This document shows, piece by piece, positions 3,686-25,760 of a DNA stretch of 36,610 nucleotides (position 1 is its first letter; each line of letters starts with the position of its first letter). A model generated the notes under the pieces. That model saw nothing but the letters and a program-made list of their open reading frames with translations. It did not search any database and was not told the origin of the DNA. The position numbers and the translations under genes were made by a program. Location: the NCBI GenBank assembly GCA_005191425.1, contig SUPR01000030.1, positions 1 through 36,610 of the forward strand. The letters are read 5' to 3'. The DNA comes from Candidatus Helarchaeota ASGARD archaeon Hel_GB_B (lineage in GTDB: Archaea; Asgardarchaeota; Lokiarchaeia; Helarchaeales; HEL-GB-B).

Positions 3686-3914
3686 AATTGGGTAAAAGTT
3701 CATGGAAATAAAATGAAATATCCACTCAATTCTACGTCATTTCGTCCTTGATATAAGTTTTTAATAAAAACATCTCAAATATGCTCTATGTAATATTTTT
3801 TTTAGAAACTTATTTTCTCTAAATTTTAGAAAATTAATTGAAATTTGTTTATCTATAATTTCTTTAGTAAAATTATTATATTTTTTTCAAATTTATTTTA
3901 TTCAGGTTTTAATT

Positions 3915-4880
3915 ATGACATACTTAATTTTTAACGGTGTTATTTTTCTTATTATAGGGATTTTTTTAATAATACTATCAAGCAATTTAGCCGTGGTGCA
4001 TTCAATAAAACTTTCTAGTGCTTTAGGAATATCTTCATTGATAGTTGGTATAGTTTTTGTAGGTATCGGGACCAATATGCCCGAAATTCTTAACTCAATC
4101 ATTTCATGTGCGTTAGGTCATGGAGATATCGATGCAGGAGATTCTATTGGGTCTGTACTAGCTCAACTAACCCTTGTTTTTGGTTTAATCCCTATCATTG
4201 GTCGCCGATTTTTTAAGATCGATAAAAAAGAAATCTTAATTATAGGTAGCTGCGTTATCCTTGCTCTTTTTCTTGTATATGCTGTAGTTGAAAAAGGCTT
4301 TTTTACCAGACTTGATGCCTTATTCTTAATTTTAAGTACACCCATCTACATGCTTATTACCAAATTGTTTTCAAGTAAAGGAACTTTGGACGACATTAAA
4401 AAAGAAACAATCGAAATTAAATATAAAGACAAAAAATCCAAAAAATTTCACTTATTTATCGCTATTTTAGGCTTTATAGGTGTTGGTGGAGGGTCTTATA
4501 TTATCATTAATTCAATTATCGAATTGTCATCCGTTCTTAATATCTACGAATATAATATCTCATTCTATATCGCTGCTATTGGGACCTCGCTTCCTGAATT
4601 ATCTGTCGATATTACCGCAATTCGTAAAAAAGAATATAAATTATTAATAGGAGACATTTTCGGAAGCTGTATTATTGACGCCAGCCTGTCAATTAGTATA
4701 GGCCAATTCTTTTTCCCACAATCTGTATCAGCTGACCTCGCTTCCACTACCATTATTTTTACTTTAATTGCATCTTCTTTGGTCATTTTTTTGCTCGTGA
4801 TCAGAGGTAAAGTTGATAGAAAATCCGGAATTATCTTTATAATTATTTATTTCTTTTCCTATTTGTTATTTTTTATTTAA
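3915..4880 (+). CDS. CaCA-family Na+/Ca2+-type cation exchanger
   Basis: A 321-aa integral membrane antiporter of the Ca2+:cation antiporter superfamily, with about ten hydrophobic segments in two inverted halves. Both signature alpha repeats are visible: GTNMPEILNSI followed by GDSIGSVLAQLTLVFG near residues 50-95, and GTSLPELSVDI followed by GDIFGSCIIDASLS near residues 222-265. A hydrophilic loop rich in K and D (KKETIEIKYKDKKSKK) separates the halves. It would exchange Ca2+ or a similar cation for Na+ or H+ across the cell membrane; the exact ion cannot be read from sequence. The ATG has AGGTT upstream as a modest ribosome site. It appears to be a single-gene unit. Confidence 0.87.
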   Translation: MTYLIFNGVIFLIIGIFLIILSSNLAVVHSIKLSSALGISSLIVGIVFVGIGTNMPEILNSIISCALGHGDIDAGDSIGSVLAQLTLVFGLIPIIGRRFFKIDKKEILIIGSCVILALFLVYAVVEKGFFTRLDALFLILSTPIYMLITKLFSSKGTLDDIKKETIEIKYKDKKSKKFHLFIAILGFIGVGGGSYIIINSIIELSSVLNIYEYNISFYIAAIGTSLPELSVDITAIRKKEYKLLIGDIFGSCIIDASLSISIGQFFFPQSVSADLASTTIIFTLIASSLVIFLLVIRGKVDRKSGIIFIIIYFFSYLLFFI

Positions 4881-7983: not shown

Positions 7984-9408
7984 CTATTTAACTTTAAATC
8001 CATATTTTTTTAATGAATTTTTCATGTCATTTTTAAAGGATTCAGGGGTACCTTCTAAAAATGCTCCTACCATATCTATACCCTCTACAATATCCGAATT
8101 TCTTGACTTTGCCTTCTGTTCTGCCATTGTCCCAATAGCTATTTTTGCAATTTGCCTAAAATGCTCCGGCGTTTCTAATATAATCTTGTCGAATATTTCT
8201 TTTATCCTTGGTTCCCATCTCATCCCTTCAGATTTCTCACTTTTTTTAATTTCCTCTTTCGGTTCAATCCCAAACTCTCGTCCTGTGGTTAAGTCTTTTA
8301 GATATGTTTTTAATATTGCTACATATGATTTAACTCTCTCTTCATCTCTTATTATTGCTTTCTGCGCCCATTTAGAACAATAATCACATTCATCACACAT
8401 CGCATTACAGTTCTGATTCTTGAAAAATTCAATAAACCCATCTAACTTTGTATTATCAATTATAATTTTTGATTTTTGTTCTAAATCCAAGCATTTCCTC
8501 ATCCCTTCAATTGGATCCTTCTGATATGTCCCTTCCGCTGAAATAGAAATAGCCTGTATAATATCAATTAAATTTCCTTTATACTCCCGATTTGAATACG
8601 CATTAACTGACCTAATTATCCAATTCGTTGGCATTCTACGCCCTGCTATCTTAAAATTTTTTATCCCTATTCTCTCATAATGCACCAAATCTTCAGGCCT
8701 TATCCACCTACATTTTATTAACTCCACTGGATCTGAATATTTTATAATACTACAATTTAATATACACGTATCTATATACTTACCTTTCATTGGGTGGTCA
8801 GTTTGCGAAGAATGCCCCATAAGGTTATAATGATAAAGCCGAAATGGACACTGAAATAAACACCCATCCGTTAATAGTAAATTTAACTCACAATTGTATT
8901 TTCTAAGCGCTTTTTGCATCTTCTCTAAAGTCTTAAAATCCCTATTTATCATAGCATCCGGTGTTATCTCTGATGCTCCTAACTCAGCATAAAATTTTGC
9001 CCGATTGACCGAATTCACCGTTGCAATTGTCGATACCCTTATTTTTAATTCTGGAAATTGCTCATGTATTATTTGTATCAAAAATGGTATCGTCACTATT
9101 ACATAATCTGATCCTATATTAACTATCCACTCGAGATACTCTATTATCTTTCTATAATACCCCTTGTCATATTCTATATTTCCTAAACATGGCGCATTTA
9201 ATAAATAAGCAAATTTCATCCTATTTTTGTGTACTTCCTTTATGTATTCAGTAATTTCCTCCTCTGAAACCTCGGGTAATAAAAATGACGGCCTACCTCC
9301 ACCTATCGGCGTATTTGGCGCACTACCATACAAGTCTCTAACCGGATATTTTATTATTTTCTCAATAAGTTCTGGATCCCAATTTGTCGCTACAGTAAAT
9401 CGTGCCAT
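7984..9408 (-). CDS. U32-family iron-sulfur protein with PCP-reductase-like tail
   Basis: A protein of about 474 aa. Residues 1-290 resemble the peptidase U32 family (UbiU/UbiV, RlhA, YdcP type), TIM-barrel proteins that often bind Fe-S and act in hydroxylation of RNA or quinones. Visible are the barrel strand KIRVSTIATVNS with GASEITPDAMINRD, cysteines in DGCLFQCPFR and CILNCS, and IKCRWIRPEDL...GIKNFKIAGR. A second cysteine cluster, CNAMCDECDYC, follows. The C-terminal 65 residues (RWEPRIKEIFDKI, then PEHFRQIAKIAIGTMAEQK) resemble the PCP-reductase helical domain found at the end of BchB and on many anaerobe proteins. The substrate is unknown. I chose ATG 9408 over 9420 because GGAG lies eight bases upstream of it. 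Confidence is high for the U32 relation and moderate for the tail. Confidence 0.75.
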   Translation of the reverse strand: MARFTVATNWDPELIEKIIKYPVRDLYGSAPNTPIGGGRPSFLLPEVSEEEITEYIKEVHKNRMKFAYLLNAPCLGNIEYDKGYYRKIIEYLEWIVNIGSDYVIVTIPFLIQIIHEQFPELKIRVSTIATVNSVNRAKFYAELGASEITPDAMINRDFKTLEKMQKALRKYNCELNLLLTDGCLFQCPFRLYHYNLMGHSSQTDHPMKGKYIDTCILNCSIIKYSDPVELIKCRWIRPEDLVHYERIGIKNFKIAGRRMPTNWIIRSVNAYSNREYKGNLIDIIQAISISAEGTYQKDPIEGMRKCLDLEQKSKIIIDNTKLDGFIEFFKNQNCNAMCDECDYCSKWAQKAIIRDEERVKSYVAILKTYLKDLTTGREFGIEPKEEIKKSEKSEGMRWEPRIKEIFDKIILETPEHFRQIAKIAIGTMAEQKAKSRNSDIVEGIDMVGAFLEGTPESFKNDMKNSLKKYGFKVK

Positions 9409-9873
9409 ATATATCTCCATTAATCTTTTTTCATTTTTTTATTTTCTAACAAATTATTTTTGACTATTCTATAGCCTTTTTGGCTACTTTTTTATTATAT
9501 CTATTCAATATTCTTATTTTTTTAACCATTTATATGGTGCCCTACTCATTTATCTCGCTATTTAAAGATTTTTTAATGTAAAAATTAATATGAAATCTAA
9601 AATCTATTTTCTCATCTGCTCAATTTATCTTTATAAAAATAACTCAGGATTTCTTTTCATTATAGCTATAAATGCCCTTAATTACCTATTTAGACCTATT
9701 ATTTTATTTTTTTATTATTTTTCGCAACATCTTGCTCAATGTCCCTTCTATACCTCACTTATTTTTACTAATATTTGTAAAATCTTCCTTAATTTTATCT
9801 CACTGAAAATGAAATAAAATTATTTATATATTGTTAAAATACAAGACATTTTGAAAAAACTCGATTAACATTG
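9409..9873. other. intergenic region, no convincing gene
   Basis: The region holds the promoter side of the U32-like gene. A small hairpin (TAGCC, five T, GGCTA) at 9472-9486 is followed by a T run in plus-strand sense. A 75-codon hydrophobic open frame at 9590-9817 is rich in F, Y, I and L, as random T-rich DNA would be, and has no upstream ribosome site, so it is not called. Confidence 0.45.
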
Positions 9874-14363: not shown

Positions 14364-15071
14364 ATGACAGAAGATGAAGATAAAGAGAAAACCGAGGCAT
14401 ATAAGAAGTTTGCCGACAAATTGAAGATTGAGCAGTTAAAAGGAGAAGGAGAAAGGATTCAAGCGCTAAGAAAATTGGTACAAGAGTTTGAAAAAAATTA
14501 TGGTACGGATATTAAGTTAATGCCAGCGGAAATGCAAAATAAATATAGAGAAATGAGGAAACAAGCGGGTCTACCTGAAATTTCTGAAATAGAAGTAATT
14601 GGTCCAATGTCTGAAAAAAAAGAAAACACACCAGCAAATTTGGCTAACATTATATTAAAGTTAGGGATAGGTAGAAAGGACAAGACAGGTGGGCTTATGT
14701 TGCTCTCAGAACTAATTATGTTGTTAAGGACACAGACACCGCTGAAAAAAGTAAAAATAGGAGAAGTCAAAAGAGTATTAAAGAGATTAGAGAAAGAAGG
14801 GCTTATATCCGGCTTAAAAAGATTAAACTCAGGGGTAGAAATAGTTGAATTTTTACCGACCGGGTTTAACAAAGACCAAAACATAATATTATCATTAGCG
14901 TCATCAAATGGGGTTCTTACCTTAGAAGAAATTATGCTTAAATTAAATTGGGCGCAAGAGAGAGTTTTAAGAGTGTTGAAAACATTAGAAAAATCTAATA
15001 TTGCTAAAAGAGACCATAGTTATGCAGCCGGTCAAAAATGGTATTTTCCAGGGTTAATTAAAGACTCATAA
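14364..15071 (+). CDS. ESCRT-II subunit, Vps22/EAP30-like
   Basis: A 235-aa protein matching the EAP30 (Vps22/SNF8) family of the ESCRT-II membrane-remodelling complex. A charged helical N-terminal region (residues 1-80, EDKEKTEAYKKFADKLKIEQ) precedes two winged-helix domains. The first has GGLMLLSELIMLLRTQTPLK, then IGEVKRVLKRLEKEGLISGL. The second has SNGVLTLEEIMLKLNWAQER, then VLRVLKTLEKSNIAKRD and KWYFPGLI, close to the SNF8 ending (..ERA..VL..L..EG...D......YW.P.L). In eukaryotes ESCRT-II links ubiquitinated cargo and ESCRT-I to ESCRT-III; Asgard archaea encode homologues. No other ESCRT or ubiquitin gene lies in the window, so this subunit is separated from the usual cluster. The next gene begins 72 bases on in the same direction. 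Confidence 0.82.
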   Translation: MTEDEDKEKTEAYKKFADKLKIEQLKGEGERIQALRKLVQEFEKNYGTDIKLMPAEMQNKYREMRKQAGLPEISEIEVIGPMSEKKENTPANLANIILKLGIGRKDKTGGLMLLSELIMLLRTQTPLKKVKIGEVKRVLKRLEKEGLISGLKRLNSGVEIVEFLPTGFNKDQNIILSLASSNGVLTLEEIMLKLNWAQERVLRVLKTLEKSNIAKRDHSYAAGQKWYFPGLIKDS

Positions 15072-17153: not shown

Positions 17154-17323
17154 ATGCAGAAGCGATAAGGCTCTTCCGTGTTCGGGATGGGTAACGGGTG
17201 TTTCCCTTCACCTATGATCGTGATTAAAGTCACAACCATCCTAAGTTCCCATACACTCTCGTAGTATAGTACAGTTAGGACCGCGTGAAGGCTTAATTCG
17301 GCGTCTTATTACTTCTTTTGCAT
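17154..17323 (-). other. new terminal stem of the permuted 5S rRNA
   Basis: The opened ends of the permuted 5S are flanked by two strands that pair with each other. The 5' strand is ATGCAAAAGAAGTAATAAG (17323 to 17305) and the 3' strand is CTTATCGCTTCTGCAT (17169 to 17154). They form 5 pairs, a three-base bulge (AAA), 4 pairs (GAAG/CTTC), a 2-by-2 internal loop and 5 pairs. This resembles a relaxed bulge-helix-bulge, the substrate of archaeal splicing endonuclease, although the second bulge is not canonical. Linkers ACGCCGAA and AGC join the stem to the 5S core. Confidence 0.7.
17173..17296 (-). rRNA. 5S rRNA, circularly permuted gene order
   Basis: In minus-strand sense the 3' half (67 nt, 17296 to 17230) comes first: TTAAGCCTTCACGCGG, helix V CCTAA/TTAGG, loop D CTACGAGAG, GGGAAC and the 3' strand of helix I, ATGGTTGTGA. 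A six-base loop CTTTAA (17229-17224) follows, then the 5' half (51 nt, 17223 to 17173): helix I TCACGATCAT, AGGTGAAGGG, AAACACCCG, CCCATCCCGAAC and CGGAAG. Helix I pairs over all ten positions, two of them G-U. Helix II GTGAAGG pairs with CCTTCAC across the permutation. Joining the outer ends gives CGGAAG-TTAAGCC, the normal archaeal 5S sequence, and a 118-nt molecule of normal length. The gene stands alone, away from 16S and 23S genes. It is a component of the large ribosomal subunit. No conventional 5S copy is in the window. Confidence 0.93.
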
Positions 17324-17345: not shown

Positions 17346-17864
17346 AAAACGATTTTAAAGGTGTATAGCTTAAATTTTAAGTTATAAATTAAATTAAGAT
17401 TATAAATTACCATAAATAATGAAATTTAAAGTTTTTCTATATAAAAATGAATTATGCAAATTTCAAGTGAAAATTAAATTTTTATGATCAAATGTACATT
17501 TTTAAGACAAATAAAATAAAAAAAATAAATGGTAAAAGAAATTAATTGGAAAAATATATTAATTTTAGAAGTATTAATAAAAATAATTAATGGGATTTGG
17601 AAAACTCCATAAATAAAAATAAATTAAGATTATTCGGGGTTAAAGAATTTTTAAAAGATAGATAAAGGCTATAAATATTAGGAAGTTTCAATAGAAATTG
17701 GAAAATAATTAGATAAAATTTAAATTTCACCAAAAAATATTAATGAATAAAAAAGTAAAAAAATTTAAATAAAATAGATTATATGAAAAAAAGAATTAAT
17801 TTTTAAAAACTTATGAAATAAATACTAAAAATCAATTGGTTAAAATAATTGGAGTAAAGTAATA
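17346..17864. other. AT-rich spacer, no gene seen
   Basis: About 520 A-rich bases between the 5S gene and the DUF1512 gene, transcribed away from each other. It should hold both promoters. No open frame, tRNA or repeat was noticed. Confidence 0.5.
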
Positions 17865-20717: not shown

Positions 20718-23700
20718 CTAATCTTCAATAATTTTGTAATAACCTTCTTTTGGTTGATAAAGTACGCCATGCATTCTAAGAGTATTTAATTCTGATTCGA
20801 CTTGTTCTTCCGAAATTCTAAGCCTACTGGCAGCTTCTTTAATCTCTTCAATCGAAACAGCTTGACCACCTTTTCTTTCTGTTAATTCTCGAATTAATTG
20901 ATTAATTTGGTCTAAACGTCTTCTATGAGTAGTAGTGATACCCGTTTCTATTGCATCGATATCTGAGACACCAGTCTCCTGGTCAATCCCAACCTGTCCT
21001 AAAGAATAAGTCATTAATTGGATCACTGATTGAGCATCTTCAGCAGTTACTTCTTCATGTAATAAAACTTTAGCTCTTGCTTCAGCAAGTCGTATTAATG
21101 CCTCTAAATATCGAGCTGTAATCGGAATTGGTGTCTCTGGATCTGCGCCCGCAATTCGAGTTTGTAAATAAAACTGTTTAATTACTTCTATTGCTTCTTT
21201 GGTTATTCGAGGTTTACAATTTTTCTTAGCATAATAGATATAATTTTTTAAAAGTTCATGATCAATTGGTGGTTCTTGGGGTGTTTCTTCAGAACTTAAT
21301 ATAAAATTTGCCATTCGTTCATCATTTGTAGGACTTGGTTGGTCCCTAATTAAAAATATTAAATCAAATCTCGATAAAATAGTCGGCGGTAATTTCTTAA
21401 TATTCTCCGCAACTGTTTTATATGGGTCATATCTACCTTGAAATGGGTTGGCTGCAGCTAGAATTGACGTCCTTGAATTTAACGTAGCTATTATTCCTGC
21501 TTTTGCTATACTGACCGTATTGTGCAATATGACACCGTGGCTAACAAAATTATGATTTGGTTCAATAGTTATATCATATACCCAAGGAGTAAAATATTCT
21601 TCTTCATTTTTAATTTTCTGAATATCAACAATTTTCAGAAATTTTATGTCTGATTTTATTAACTTTTGGACTGACTTTACTGAACCAATGGTTTTTTCGA
21701 TTTTTTTAATTAAAATATCGATGTTGTCCTTATTTAAACAATTGTCATTATTTTGGTTAATATTCTCAATTAATTCCGAATTTGGGATTAAGTTATTAAC
21801 TATTAATGAAATTTCTGGTTTCAAATTTAAATATGAACTGGATGAATAAGGTGTATTCAAAAGTTTTTTGAGTTTTTGCTGGATTTTGTAGAGTTTATTA
21901 ACTGCCTCGTTTAATAATTTTAGAGCTAGCTCTTTTGTCATTTTAGGCTTGTTTATACCAGTAAATTTAGATAGTGTAGATGAATTTGAACAGATTTTTT
22001 CAGTAATTTTTGTGATTAAATTTTCAATAGGGACGGGAATTGTATCATATTTAAATTGGTCATAGAAAATATCTTTTAAAGCTGGAGTTTGAGGCTCTTT
22101 CTGGTCGAACTGAAGAAATATTTCCTGGACAAATTTTTGAAGTGAGCATGGCGATATAAACAGTTTATGTCTTCTGTTCTCAAATTTGATATAGCTTGAA
22201 ATACCTAATTTTAATAATAAATCTTGCAAATCTTCGCAAATTACTTTTTTCTGACACACAAAGTATATTTTTTGCTCAAAAATTTCTCCAATAGTCCTAA
22301 AAGTAGCGGTTAAAAAAGATTTGGCTATTTCTTTACTTGCACCCAGTATTTTTGATGGGACACGTTTATTATTATTATCCATTAATTCAGGAAAATTTAT
22401 TTTGAACCAGTAATAGAGGTCATAAGAGTCATAATAGACTACTGTATAGTCAATCAGATTTAATTTCTGAATTGGTATTATTCCAAATAAATCATTTAAA
22501 AGCCGGGCGACCTCATTTATTATATTTTTAGATAAATTTGAAAACTGAATTTGAGTTGAAATATCTGAATTTAAATTACCAGAAGTGAAAAAATGTCCAA
22601 CAAGTTCAGCTACCTCTAATGTTAGGAGATTTGGCTCTTTTTTTACCTGTAATTTAGTTATAAAATTATGGTCTAACGCAATTGGTTTCGTAGAATTAGG
22701 TAAATAACGAGGGGCTGGTATATAATCACCTATTGAGCAATTTTCTGCTTTAACACAGTCTATATTGAGTCCATTTAATTTAAATACAGGGTGTTCTGGA
22801 GTAACAATTATTGACCTACCATTTGAAAATTCTATCTTGTAAAAATTGCTTGGAGCTATATGTCGGCTTAATCTATTTATCCTACTTTTATAAATTTGTT
22901 CAAAATCTGTAGTATATAGTCCTATATCTTGAAATGGAAGTATTTCACAATTAATACCTTTGACCACTTCTTTTGGACGCGATTCAATTGCGTCATCAAT
23001 GAATTCGCCAATTTTAATTTTTCTTCCGTCAATAAGTAAAATTTCAGTATTTGGGTGGAAACATAGTTGTTCCATGGACTCATGAATAGAAATACGATCT
23101 TCGGGCCTCATTTTATCAAATTCATCAATGGCAGCCAGACCTTGATCTGCTAATACGAGTACTCCTGCTTCAAGTGAGAGATTTCCTGTATCTTTATCTC
23201 TTAATACGCTCGCGGTTAAGCCAGCCGCACTTGTACCTTTACCACTTGTATATATCCCTCTTGGTGCTATTAATGCTGCACTTTTTAGGATTTGACTATT
23301 ATGGAAAATTACATGACCATTGGCAAGGATAAAATGGTTATTCTCAGTCCCTATATCATATACATATTCAAACTCATTTTCTAATTTAGTTATTGAAATA
23401 ATTTTGTCCCAAAAAACATTTTTGTTTATTGAAGTTCCTAAAATCTTGGCATCTTGATACTTTTTATTTAAGTTATGAGTACATCTCTTTAAAGCCAGGA
23501 TTGTTCCTAGACATTCGGATAATACTTTTTGATTATTAAAATCAAGTAATTTAGGTTGAATAAATCTTTGAGGGATGGTACCTAAAGAAATACCCGTTCT
23601 ATTTATTTCCGTGTCTAATAGATTAAGCTTATTATAAGAATAGACATGGTGTTCCCGCTTTACTCTCAAATATAAATTTTTTTGTTCTTTATTATTTATA

Positions 23701-25760
23701 AAATAACATAATTTAAAAAATTTGACCAAGTCGCTTTTTAATATTAATAATTTATAGTCAATAACATTATTTCTTTTATGTGATTTTGTACTGACTTTAA
23801 TAATACTCTGTATTCCAAGTAAATTTAATAAATCTCTTAAATTTAACAATAATCTTTTTGATTTTGATCGGATTCCAAGTACATTTCTCTTGTTTATTTT
23901 ACTTTTTCCTGAGAAATAACCTGAAATAAATCCCTGTAAGAAGGGTCTAGGTGCATAGAAAAAGAGTTCTGGAACGCTTTTAACACCATTAAAATAAAAA
24001 AGTTTCTTGAATACCTCCCTAATAACAACGGAACGATATTTTATAATGTTTTTGTACGTAGTATAACTTTTGAAATTTAGTTTAAAATCTTTTTCTAATT
24101 GTATTTTAATATCTTCATCGAAATATGATATGCTTATGCCATCCTTTTCTATCCGGCCATTTGCTAAAAATAATCCAAAAATTCTGCCCAGTGATTCAGT
24201 TAAACATAATTTGTCCAAGTCAATATTTTTTTGATTTCCTCTTAAAGTCCTATTTTTTTTATAATTAATTAAATTTTCAAGCTGATTTGTTCTTTTATTT
24301 AAGAGATCGGAAATTTCAATTAATTTGACTTCTTTAAAGGAGTCAATTTTCCTTGATATTGGTAAATAATCACCTAATTCAAGGTCAGACATATTTCTTA
24401 ATATTAACTTACCATTTTTTAAAGTAGTAAATGAATGGTTACCTGTCGCCTTAATTATAATACCTGATTGAAGTTTAATTTCATAAATTTCTAAACTTTT
24501 ATGTCTGCTTACTTCTAATATCTTGGAAATTTCTGGTCTAAAATAATCAAAATTAAATGATTGAGTATAAAAATCTTCTAGTCCTTTTAAGTCTAAAATT
24601 TCAGTGTCTTTATATTTAATTATTCGATTTTTATATTTACTTAATAAAGTGTCAACAAAATTACCGATTTTGTATTTTATTTTCCAATCATCAAGGGAAT
24701 TATTATAGAGGTAAATTTCTTCATTATAATGGACACTCTTACCAACTCCTGGATCGCCTACTAAAAGGACATGGATTTGACCTCTTCTTGTGGTGCCATC
24801 TTTTCTCAACCTAGATACACCCGAAAAAAGTTGTAATAAAACTGCCTCCTTAATTTCTTCAAGTCCATAAATTGAAGGTGCCACTGATTTAATTAATTTA
24901 CGGTATACCCACGGGTCATTTGCTAGTTGTTTTATTTCTTCTTCTTGTTCCGCCGTAATCTGTAAATTTTCTATTTCAACTTCTTGTTTCTCGATGTGAT
25001 TGATATCTATAAAGGTTTTAAAAATAGTTAATTTTCCTTGTTGAGATGATTCTTGCTTCGCTTTCAAAATTCCAACGATATTAACTCTATCGCCTGGCCT
25101 TGCTAAATCGACAATATCTTCTAATAAATAACCGTCCATAAATCTGGGCATTTGTCCAGGAGGTAGTTCTTCAGGTTTTTCTTGAACCCGGATTTTCTGC
25201 CAATCAATGTATGTAGATCGTTCTAATAACAATTTAAATGGGCCCTTTTTATTACATTGTGGACAAATTAATGGTTTTGTAAATTCATTATCTTCTTGGT
25301 CAACAGGAATTATTGCTTCATTACAACTTAAACACTTGAATACCCCTCGTATCATTAATGGGACTACTTTATTAACTCTTGTTAAAATACCACTTATTTG
25401 GATCAATTTGCCGATGTGATTTGCCCTAATTTTTCGCAGATTAATTCTATTGGTAGGTTCAAGATTTCTAAACCTAGCATGAAATTTGTCTACCTGGTAC
25501 GCATATTCTTCGCTAATTATTCTCAATCTGTGCTTTATCGCAAGTGATGCCATTTCAATATAAAATTCAGGAGATTCTAACAACTTTCTTGCCAATTCCG
25601 AATCAAATCTCAATAAATCATCATAATCAATTGTAAGCGAGATACTTGCACTTAATTCCATTTGTCCTATCATATCATCATATTTTCTAGAACCATTTTC
25701 ATCTATATAATCGCTAAAAAATGTTTCAAATCTGGCTACAATATCGGCAGAATCTTCCAT
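20718..25760 (-). CDS. mcm: MCM replicative helicase precursor with two inteins
   Basis: A 1680-aa precursor that becomes a 685-aa MCM after removal of two inteins, the normal archaeal size. MCM is the hexameric motor of the replication fork. The N-terminal domain has a zinc site (C143, C146, C166, C169). The AAA+ core has Walker A GDPGVGKS (335-342), Walker B LAAIDEFDKM and arginine-finger LSRFDL. A winged-helix domain ends the protein. Intein 1 splits Walker A between K341 and the following Ser; intein 2 lies after HESMEQL and before TVSIAKAGI. The helicase cannot bind ATP until both are spliced. The GINS gene 3 kb away would supply its partner. Confidence 0.96.
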   Translation of the reverse strand: MEDSADIVARFETFFSDYIDENGSRKYDDMIGQMELSASISLTIDYDDLLRFDSELARKLLESPEFYIEMASLAIKHRLRIISEEYAYQVDKFHARFRNLEPTNRINLRKIRANHIGKLIQISGILTRVNKVVPLMIRGVFKCLSCNEAIIPVDQEDNEFTKPLICPQCNKKGPFKLLLERSTYIDWQKIRVQEKPEELPPGQMPRFMDGYLLEDIVDLARPGDRVNIVGILKAKQESSQQGKLTIFKTFIDINHIEKQEVEIENLQITAEQEEEIKQLANDPWVYRKLIKSVAPSIYGLEEIKEAVLLQLFSGVSRLRKDGTTRRGQIHVLLVGDPGVGKSVHYNEEIYLYNNSLDDWKIKYKIGNFVDTLLSKYKNRIIKYKDTEILDLKGLEDFYTQSFNFDYFRPEISKILEVSRHKSLEIYEIKLQSGIIIKATGNHSFTTLKNGKLILRNMSDLELGDYLPISRKIDSFKEVKLIEISDLLNKRTNQLENLINYKKNRTLRGNQKNIDLDKLCLTESLGRIFGLFLANGRIEKDGISISYFDEDIKIQLEKDFKLNFKSYTTYKNIIKYRSVVIREVFKKLFYFNGVKSVPELFFYAPRPFLQGFISGYFSGKSKINKRNVLGIRSKSKRLLLNLRDLLNLLGIQSIIKVSTKSHKRNNVIDYKLLILKSDLVKFFKLCYFINNKEQKNLYLRVKREHHVYSYNKLNLLDTEINRTGISLGTIPQRFIQPKLLDFNNQKVLSECLGTILALKRCTHNLNKKYQDAKILGTSINKNVFWDKIISITKLENEFEYVYDIGTENNHFILANGHVIFHNSQILKSAALIAPRGIYTSGKGTSAAGLTASVLRDKDTGNLSLEAGVLVLADQGLAAIDEFDKMRPEDRISIHESMEQLCFHPNTEILLIDGRKIKIGEFIDDAIESRPKEVVKGINCEILPFQDIGLYTTDFEQIYKSRINRLSRHIAPSNFYKIEFSNGRSIIVTPEHPVFKLNGLNIDCVKAENCSIGDYIPAPRYLPNSTKPIALDHNFITKLQVKKEPNLLTLEVAELVGHFFTSGNLNSDISTQIQFSNLSKNIINEVARLLNDLFGIIPIQKLNLIDYTVVYYDSYDLYYWFKINFPELMDNNNKRVPSKILGASKEIAKSFLTATFRTIGEIFEQKIYFVCQKKVICEDLQDLLLKLGISSYIKFENRRHKLFISPCSLQKFVQEIFLQFDQKEPQTPALKDIFYDQFKYDTIPVPIENLITKITEKICSNSSTLSKFTGINKPKMTKELALKLLNEAVNKLYKIQQKLKKLLNTPYSSSSYLNLKPEISLIVNNLIPNSELIENINQNNDNCLNKDNIDILIKKIEKTIGSVKSVQKLIKSDIKFLKIVDIQKIKNEEEYFTPWVYDITIEPNHNFVSHGVILHNTVSIAKAGIIATLNSRTSILAAANPFQGRYDPYKTVAENIKKLPPTILSRFDLIFLIRDQPSPTNDERMANFILSSEETPQEPPIDHELLKNYIYYAKKNCKPRITKEAIEVIKQFYLQTRIAGADPETPIPITARYLEALIRLAEARAKVLLHEEVTAEDAQSVIQLMTYSLGQVGIDQETGVSDIDAIETGITTTHRRRLDQINQLIRELTERKGGQAVSIEEIKEAASRLRISEEQVESELNTLRMHGVLYQPKEGYYKIIED
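21519..23063 (-). mobile_element. intein 2 in MCM (515 aa)
   Basis: This intein starts with Cys (CFHPNTEILLIDG), has the block B TPEHPVF and ends with VYDITIEPNHNFVSHG and VILHN, followed by Thr as the +1 residue. It therefore has everything for class 1 splicing. The endonuclease region is recognisable (VAELVGHFFTSGNL near intein residues 151-164, SFLTATFRTIGE near 249-260), but the acidic catalytic residues of both LAGLIDADG helices are replaced by S and by R/T. An unusually long stretch of about 130 residues separates the endonuclease region from the C-terminal splicing block. Confidence 0.93.
23298..24737 (-). mobile_element. intein 1 in MCM (480 aa)
   Basis: This intein starts with Ser (SVHYNEEIYLYNN), has the block B ATGNHSFTT and ends with FEYVYDIGTENNHFILANGH and VIFHN, with Ser at +1. 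It sits inside the P-loop. LAGLIDADG helix 1 (RIFGLFLANGRI, intein residues 185-196) has N where the catalytic D is expected. Helix 2 (FISGYFSGKS, 270-279) has S and K instead of D and D. DNA cutting is therefore probably lost while splicing must be retained, since mcm is essential. Confidence 0.93.

Follow-up and report, generated by a model that had tools for sequence, protein, structure and literature searches.

Circularly permuted 5S rRNA genes with bulge-helix-bulge ends in Asgard archaea

The minus strand of positions 17173 to 17296 of the window, i.e., of the whole 36,610-nucleotide stretch of Asgard DNA analyzed here, carries a complete 5S rRNA gene that runs from the 3' half through the helix I hairpin to the 5' half. 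The direct observations on this circularly permuted 5S rRNA gene are the order of its parts, the conservation of that order among Asgard archaea, covariation in a bulge-helix-bulge (BHB) at the gene ends, an exact predicted junction, the failure to detect a conventional copy, and the presence of genes for EndA and RtcB. Our main reading, to which we assign a probability of about 0.83 in the absence of RNA data, is that the transcript of the permuted gene is processed at the BHB by EndA and RtcB into a circular 5S, less likely one that is reopened at the helix I loop, and that this is the ribosomal 5S.

The 3' half comes first (minus strand, 17296 to 17230, TTAAGCCTTCACGCGG...GGATGGTTGTGA). It begins with TTAAGCC and comprises the 3' side of loop B, the 3' strand of helix II, helices IV and V, and the 3' strand of helix I. 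It is followed by the apical loop CTTTAA (17224 to 17229), which caps helix I where a normal 5S has free ends, and by the 5' half (17223 to 17173, TCACGATCATAGGTGAAGG...CCCGAACACGGAAG), which contains the 5' strand of helix I, loop A, the 5' strand of helix II, helix III, and loop C. In short, the minus strand reads TTAAGCC...GGTTGTGA, CTTTAA, TCACGATC...CGAACACGGAAG; both halves are assigned from the sequence, the fold, and a loose match to the Rfam model RF00001. Helix I (GGTTGTGA/TCACGATC) forms a closed hairpin with 8 of 8 pairs, helix II (CCTTCAC/GTGAAGG) pairs across the two swapped halves, and helix III and helices IV/V are each contained within one half. The permuted order with its CTTTAA loop, the helix I hairpin, and the pairing of helix II between the halves had all been recognized in the initial annotation of this DNA. 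Its further proposal, that joining the outer ends yields a standard 118-nt 5S with a CGGAAG-TTAAGCC run, is also confirmed. The 118-mer made from the rejoined halves has a 5S-like fold, and a hidden Markov model (HMM) built from 29 conventional Asgard 5S genes of five families scores the window at 47.9 bits as a circle (positions 3 to 108) versus 23.4 bits in gene order (positions 3 to 62). Across the permuted loci, the corresponding medians are 43.2 bits over 112 positions and 20.4 bits over 49 positions. All hallmarks of 5S rRNA, namely helices I to V, loops A to E, and the conserved loop B and loop C sequences, are found in permuted order. The locus meets the definition of a circularly permuted RNA gene (3' half first, native ends looped together) and fails that of an ordinary one (colinear 5'-to-3' order scoring above the RF00001 gathering threshold). 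A weak candidate archaeal TATA box, CCTTTAAAATCG, is found in the sequence on the minus strand at 17350 to 17361, and similar boxes lie upstream in relatives. There, TTTATA-like boxes are mildly to moderately enriched 45 to 60 nt upstream of the BHB central helix; given this mild enrichment, a promoter belonging to the gene itself is plausible, if not shown.

Rfam searches at the curated threshold give no match in the window. In a cmscan run at a loose threshold, RF00001 produces two separate half-matches of 24.0 and 19.9 bits (threshold, 38) and no further 5S parts in the stretch, in keeping with the earlier expectation that standard searches would find half of the gene or miss it. A conventional 5S gene elsewhere had been named as potential refuting evidence. 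It was sought with RF00001 at standard sensitivity, which gives no match in the 3.54-Mb genome (182 contigs, 93.7% complete); the same search was positive in 11 control genomes, 4 of them archaeal. For this genome considered by itself, which is not fully complete, a conventional copy could still lie in a gap. The mtPerm-5S model, RF02547, has no match in this genome, in any control genome, or in the window scans. A tandem array, in which the 3' half of one copy would precede the 5' half of the next, was considered and rejected, since the flanks contain no further 5S parts. Elsewhere in the window, the minus strand at 20718 to 25760 encodes an MCM helicase whose 1,680 codons include two intein-splicing stretches as well as a LAGLIDADG domain. 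The plus strand at 14364 to 15071 encodes a member of the EAP30/Vps36 (ESCRT-II) family, a eukaryotic-signature protein known from Asgard genomes.

The permuted-gene reading of the initial annotation is supported. What it missed, besides the BHB described below, through which a canonical 5S backbone could be regained, is that the gene is no isolated oddity but has a near phylum-wide spread. A DNA search of 60 relatives initially gave one full-length and one partial neighbor; on reading, these neighbors and the weak RF00001 matches turned out to be permuted genes. A covariance model, R1, was built from four real permuted sequences and four synthetic permutations of conventional relatives. It scores the window at 119 bits and matches 69 of the 83 genomes of the class and 155 of the 228 genomes of the phylum. 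Families f5, f18, f26, and f28, where the 5S is conventional, account for about 18 of these 155; these matches are weak and partial and were removed. The comparison with related Asgard genomes that had been suggested at the outset therefore recovers the same arrangement in ~137 genomes of 21 families (f1 to f4, f6, f8 to f17, f19 to f21, and f23 to f25), closed genomes included. Of the permuted loci, 104 were fetched and read; the others belong to the same families and were not read individually.

RF00001, run over the same 228 genomes, finds conventional genes in f5, f18, f26, f27, and f28 and few elsewhere, i.e., almost only in families without a permuted gene. Matches in three genomes of permuted families (G021, G033, and G124) were excluded as probable bacterial contamination, judged by eye from their sequence and setting. 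Several other exceptional matches correspond to parts of the permuted gene; a further exception is G095. Families f7, f22, and f29 have no assigned 5S type. In the sole f7 genome, only a 40-nt RF00001 piece (model positions 20 to 59) is found, at G060:C63:7582-7621, and it could be another permuted gene, differently broken. Four single-contig genomes of permuted families (G174, G090, G133, and G134) carry the permuted gene, and the single-contig genomes of these families have no weak RF00001 match except in G090 and G174, where it overlaps the permuted gene. Two permuted copies, far apart, are present in G090, and a tandem pair ~157 nt apart is found at L118 (G137:C510:3678-3793 and 3835-3950). 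A pattern scan of GTDB r220 for the permuted order, in which the next base was required not to be G so as to exclude ordinary genes, yielded at least 117 stretches. Among the matches listed, 30 were confirmed by R1; all are from Asgard archaea, either by title (Loki-, Hod-/Heimdall-, Jord-, and Njordarchaeota and the "Asgard group") or by their assignment to this phylum in the present genome set.

The break had been placed in loop B, on the 3' side of helix III, and this location holds. The ends are not bare, however, but sit inside a flanking helix (17303 to 17316 with 17158 to 17171) that had gone unmentioned. On the minus strand, the outer helix is formed by AGAAGTAATAAGAC (17303 to 17316) and GCCTTATCGCTTCT (17158 to 17171), which pair at 12 of 14 positions. 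The central helix is formed by GCCG (17299 to 17302) and CGGA (17175 to 17178), with CCG/CGG pairs and a G.A pair; the CGG of the latter strand doubles as the 3' strand of helix III in the mature 5S. The left 3-nt bulge, AA^T (17296 to 17298), has its inferred cut before T17296, and the right one, AG^A (17172 to 17174), has its inferred cut after G17173, so that the join reads CGGAAG|TTAAGCC. Written out, the motif is AGAAGTAATAAGAC-GCCG-[AA^T] and CGGA-[AG^A]-GCCTTATCGCTTCT.

Most permuted genes have ends of this kind, in which a 4-bp central helix lies between two bulges of 3 nt, the one next to the outer helix being on the 3' strand and the other on the 5' strand; the arrangement is that of an archaeal BHB. 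The archaeal tRNA splicing endonuclease acts on BHB substrates, and EndA cuts after the second nucleotide of the bulge. Taken together, the loci show the full motif (outer helix, two 3-nt bulges, and 4-bp helix); the window copy is imperfect, with 3 of 4 central pairs plus the G.A pair and 2 mismatches among the 14 outer positions. All four central pairs are formed in 77 of 93 loci, and the left bulge is AAG, AAA, or AAT in 62 of 75 distinct flanks. Among 75 distinct flank pairs, an average of 6.48 of 8 outer-helix positions are paired versus 3.38 of 8 with shuffled partners (maximum, 3.89 in 1,000 shuffles). Pairing is somewhat favored here by the choice of register, which was restricted to the few yielding the canonical junction. 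Locus tallies are not independent counts, because near-copies occur within a genus.

When the bulges of the window gene are cut and joined by this rule, the cuts fall exactly at 17296 and 17173 and give CGAACACGGAAG|TTAAGCC, also written CACGGAAG|TTAAGCC, which is the canonical archaeal sequence. A blind BHB search that used pairing alone returned the exact canonical junction as its top candidate in 67 of 94 loci from 17 families; as background, a mean of 3.4% of candidate geometries give this junction. This search required 4 of 4 central pairs, with wider anchors and one extra nucleotide permitted in family f14. Under that requirement the search misses the imperfect BHB of the window, whose own site is canonical but is not the top candidate. 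An earlier search that allowed 3 of 4 central pairs and wide flanks had the canonical top candidate in only 50 of 91 loci, since extended helices in the flanks prevail in incorrect registers and the anchor is thrown off by insertions in loop C. The junction is CCCGGAA|GTTAAAC in most of family f4 and CGGTAA|TTAAGC in f3, the latter matching a conventional f5 gene. Six loci (in G034, G035, G029, G044, G056, and G024) are broken in loop C instead; cutting by the same rule regenerates loop C in five, and the rejoined sequence in the f4 g5 genomes of this type is ACCCGGTC|CCATCCGAACCCGG. As predicted from sequence, cutting and joining at the bulges thus restores the canonical RNA.

Within the core, an alignment of 53 loci has two-sided changes at 26 of 29 pairs, with 85.8% of the cells paired in standard fashion and covariation in all five helices. 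Helix II, which links the swapped halves, is 89.8% paired, with two-sided changes at 7 of 7 pairs. The alignment was fitted to the structure; sliding the partners by one column lowers the pairing to ~42%.

Without RNA data, it is only inferred that the gene is transcribed, that the transcript is cleaved and ligated, and that the circle is kept. In the proposed pathway, the transcript would fold so that its leader and trailer pair as the BHB, EndA would cut inside both 3-nt bulges, and RtcB would ligate the two core ends. Two EndA-family genes and RtcB are encoded in the genome. The predicted product is a closed 124-nt circle with the canonical CGGAAGUUAAGCC at the junction and with helix I capped by a short loop; the ribosomal 5S would be this molecule or, with lower likelihood, a derivative opened again at the helix I loop. 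The helix I loop consists of 4 nt in most distinct loci and is YNCG, mostly UUCG, in at least 32 of 65. This count is a minimum, as a few loops that are TTCG by eye were misparsed by the script. Such a tetraloop pattern favors a retained closed end, or cap, over a removable spacer. Counting against it, the window loop CTTTAA is not a YNCG tetraloop, and in some relatives the apical loop is longer and might serve as a processing site. A circular mature 5S is favored, at a confidence only somewhat above even, because of the YNCG loops, the tolerance of Escherichia coli for 5S with joined ends (PMC7283268), and the circular SRP RNA of Thermoproteus (PMC4731332).

Three other accounts were considered. 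It is possible, although we doubt it, that the BHB-ligated molecule is relinearized, i.e., that the helix I loop is removed to give an ordinary linear 5S with its ends in helix I. Permuted tRNA genes are processed in this way (PMC10085705), and the apical inserts of L049, L051, L052, and L078 are longer or variable. Across many families, however, the apical loop is short and often UUCG or another YNCG, resembling a retained cap, and no conserved processing signal was noticed at this loop. It appears improbable that the ends are never ligated and that the leader and trailer are merely trimmed, leaving a linear 5S with free ends in loop B beside helix III. This account could draw on the known permuted organellar 5S RNAs (cited in PMC10085705) and on the finding that E. 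coli tolerates a permuted 5S inserted in 23S rRNA with its opening in loop C or D (PMC7283268). Trimming alone, though, needs no covarying outer helix, no 3-nt bulges, and no 4-bp central helix whose cut rule restores the exact canonical junction. One rule is obeyed at both break places, loop B and loop C.

An assembly chimera, or a pseudogene beside a missed functional 5S, can be discounted almost entirely. The source is a draft of 182 contigs, repeats can be misjoined in such assemblies, and the initial annotation had listed assembly error as a way in which its reading could fall. The identical order in ~137 separately assembled genomes, single-contig ones included, argues against error, as do the strong two-sided covariation, the absence of a conventional 5S detectable with RF00001 in this genome, and the presence of only two RF00001 halves in the stretch. 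Processing of the permuted transcript at the BHB by EndA and RtcB remains the preferred reading.

A BHB lies at the ends of permuted tRNA genes; we know of none in permuted organellar 5S. Permuted tRNA genes of archaea and algae also have the 3' half ahead of the 5' half and form a circular intermediate (Soma 2014, as cited in PMC10085705), but the tRNAs are recleaved to the standard form, whereas the Asgard 5S loop is short, often stable, and may be kept. The organellar genes (RF02547; Valach et al. 2014, as cited in PMC10085705) share the permuted 5S order and differ in being organellar. The permuted SRP RNA of Thermoproteus, which the tRNA splicing endonuclease turns into a functional circle, resembles the system proposed here: it is an essential noncoding RNA with swapped halves, ends rejoined by that enzyme, a circular product, and a gene long overlooked by standard searches (PMC4731332). 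It is a different RNA, and its processing was shown experimentally in T. tenax, whereas the Asgard 5S spans ~137 genomes and 21 families and has no RNA evidence. In an engineered permuted 5S placed in E. coli 23S rRNA, a 4-nt connector links the helix I ends, and the opening of the molecule lies in loop C or D (PMC7283268). These engineered ribosomes work, so ribosome function is possible with a capped helix I; that construct is embedded in 23S rRNA, whereas the Asgard permuted 5S is a separate natural gene. Circularization of archaeal 16S and 23S rRNAs likewise combines a BHB, EndA, and ligation on rRNA, and circular 23S rRNA has been reported in ribosomes, but those genes lack any permutation, and 5S is said to be uninvolved in the cultures studied (PMC7758197, PMC12918454). 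The 2026 study of circular archaeal rRNAs, in which 16S and 23S but not 5S were circularized in the cultures so far (PMC12918454), counts against a circular 5S.

Prediction of 5S genes is stated to have been unsuccessful in Asgard genomes (PMC8813620). A permuted or circular archaeal or Asgard 5S was not found reported in the full-text literature; preprints and most subscription papers were outside the scope of that search, so that an earlier description remains possible. Permutation is not mentioned in a 2021 survey of 5S expansion segments, and a 2023 paper on permuted RNAs lists 5S only with an organelle reference (PMC10085705).

Some permuted genes also carry inserts. In many f4 genomes, loop C contains a hairpin-capable insert of ~25 to 35 nt (e.g., CCGAAAAACCAGC...GATGGTTCGGGAACCC) with a 4-bp CCGA/UCGG helix between bulges (loci L053, L054, L062 to L067, L071 to L073, L045, L050, L055, L057, and L058). 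Either a BHB intron or an expansion kept in the RNA could account for this insert. Other f4 insertions are located at the helix I apex (L049, L051, L052, and L078) or in helix IV (L047, L048, and L068). Relative to the related L102, the permuted 5S at L060 (G080:C277, ~9350 to 9510) carries ~32 additional nt within its helix III/loop C region, possibly an intron on top of the permutation. In a tree of RpoB sequences, the same genome, assigned to f6, groups with f20 (Jordarchaeia), and G043, also f6, falls on the f4/f5 side; the placement of G080 would reflect bin contamination or misplacement.

That RpoB tree covers 63 genomes and was built from matched regions only. In it, the conventional families are scattered among the permuted ones as five separate groups, with a minimum of 5 changes; its starred branches force at least 2. 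Because the tree is unrooted and based on one gene, an ancestral permuted state followed by reversions is only a suggestion. At barely better than even odds, we propose that most Asgard archaea, probably since the ancestor of the phylum, make a closed-circle ribosomal 5S from a permuted gene through tRNA splicing, with a short loop, mostly a tetraloop, replacing the native ends, and that the five families with ordinary genes have possibly reverted.

5S rRNA is a near-universal linear RNA, and Asgard archaea are the nearest known relatives of eukaryotes. The permuted model can be used by annotation pipelines now. If the proposal is correct, a phylum-wide permuted and probably circular 5S would be a basic ribosome difference in the archaea closest to eukaryotes and would account for the missing 5S genes in most Asgard genomes, closed ones too. 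It would serve as a natural experiment on which of the 5S ends are important and would mean that tRNA splicing can be required in ribosome making. As a rare genomic character, the permutation would also bear on Asgard phylogeny and on the route to the ordinary eukaryotic 5S.
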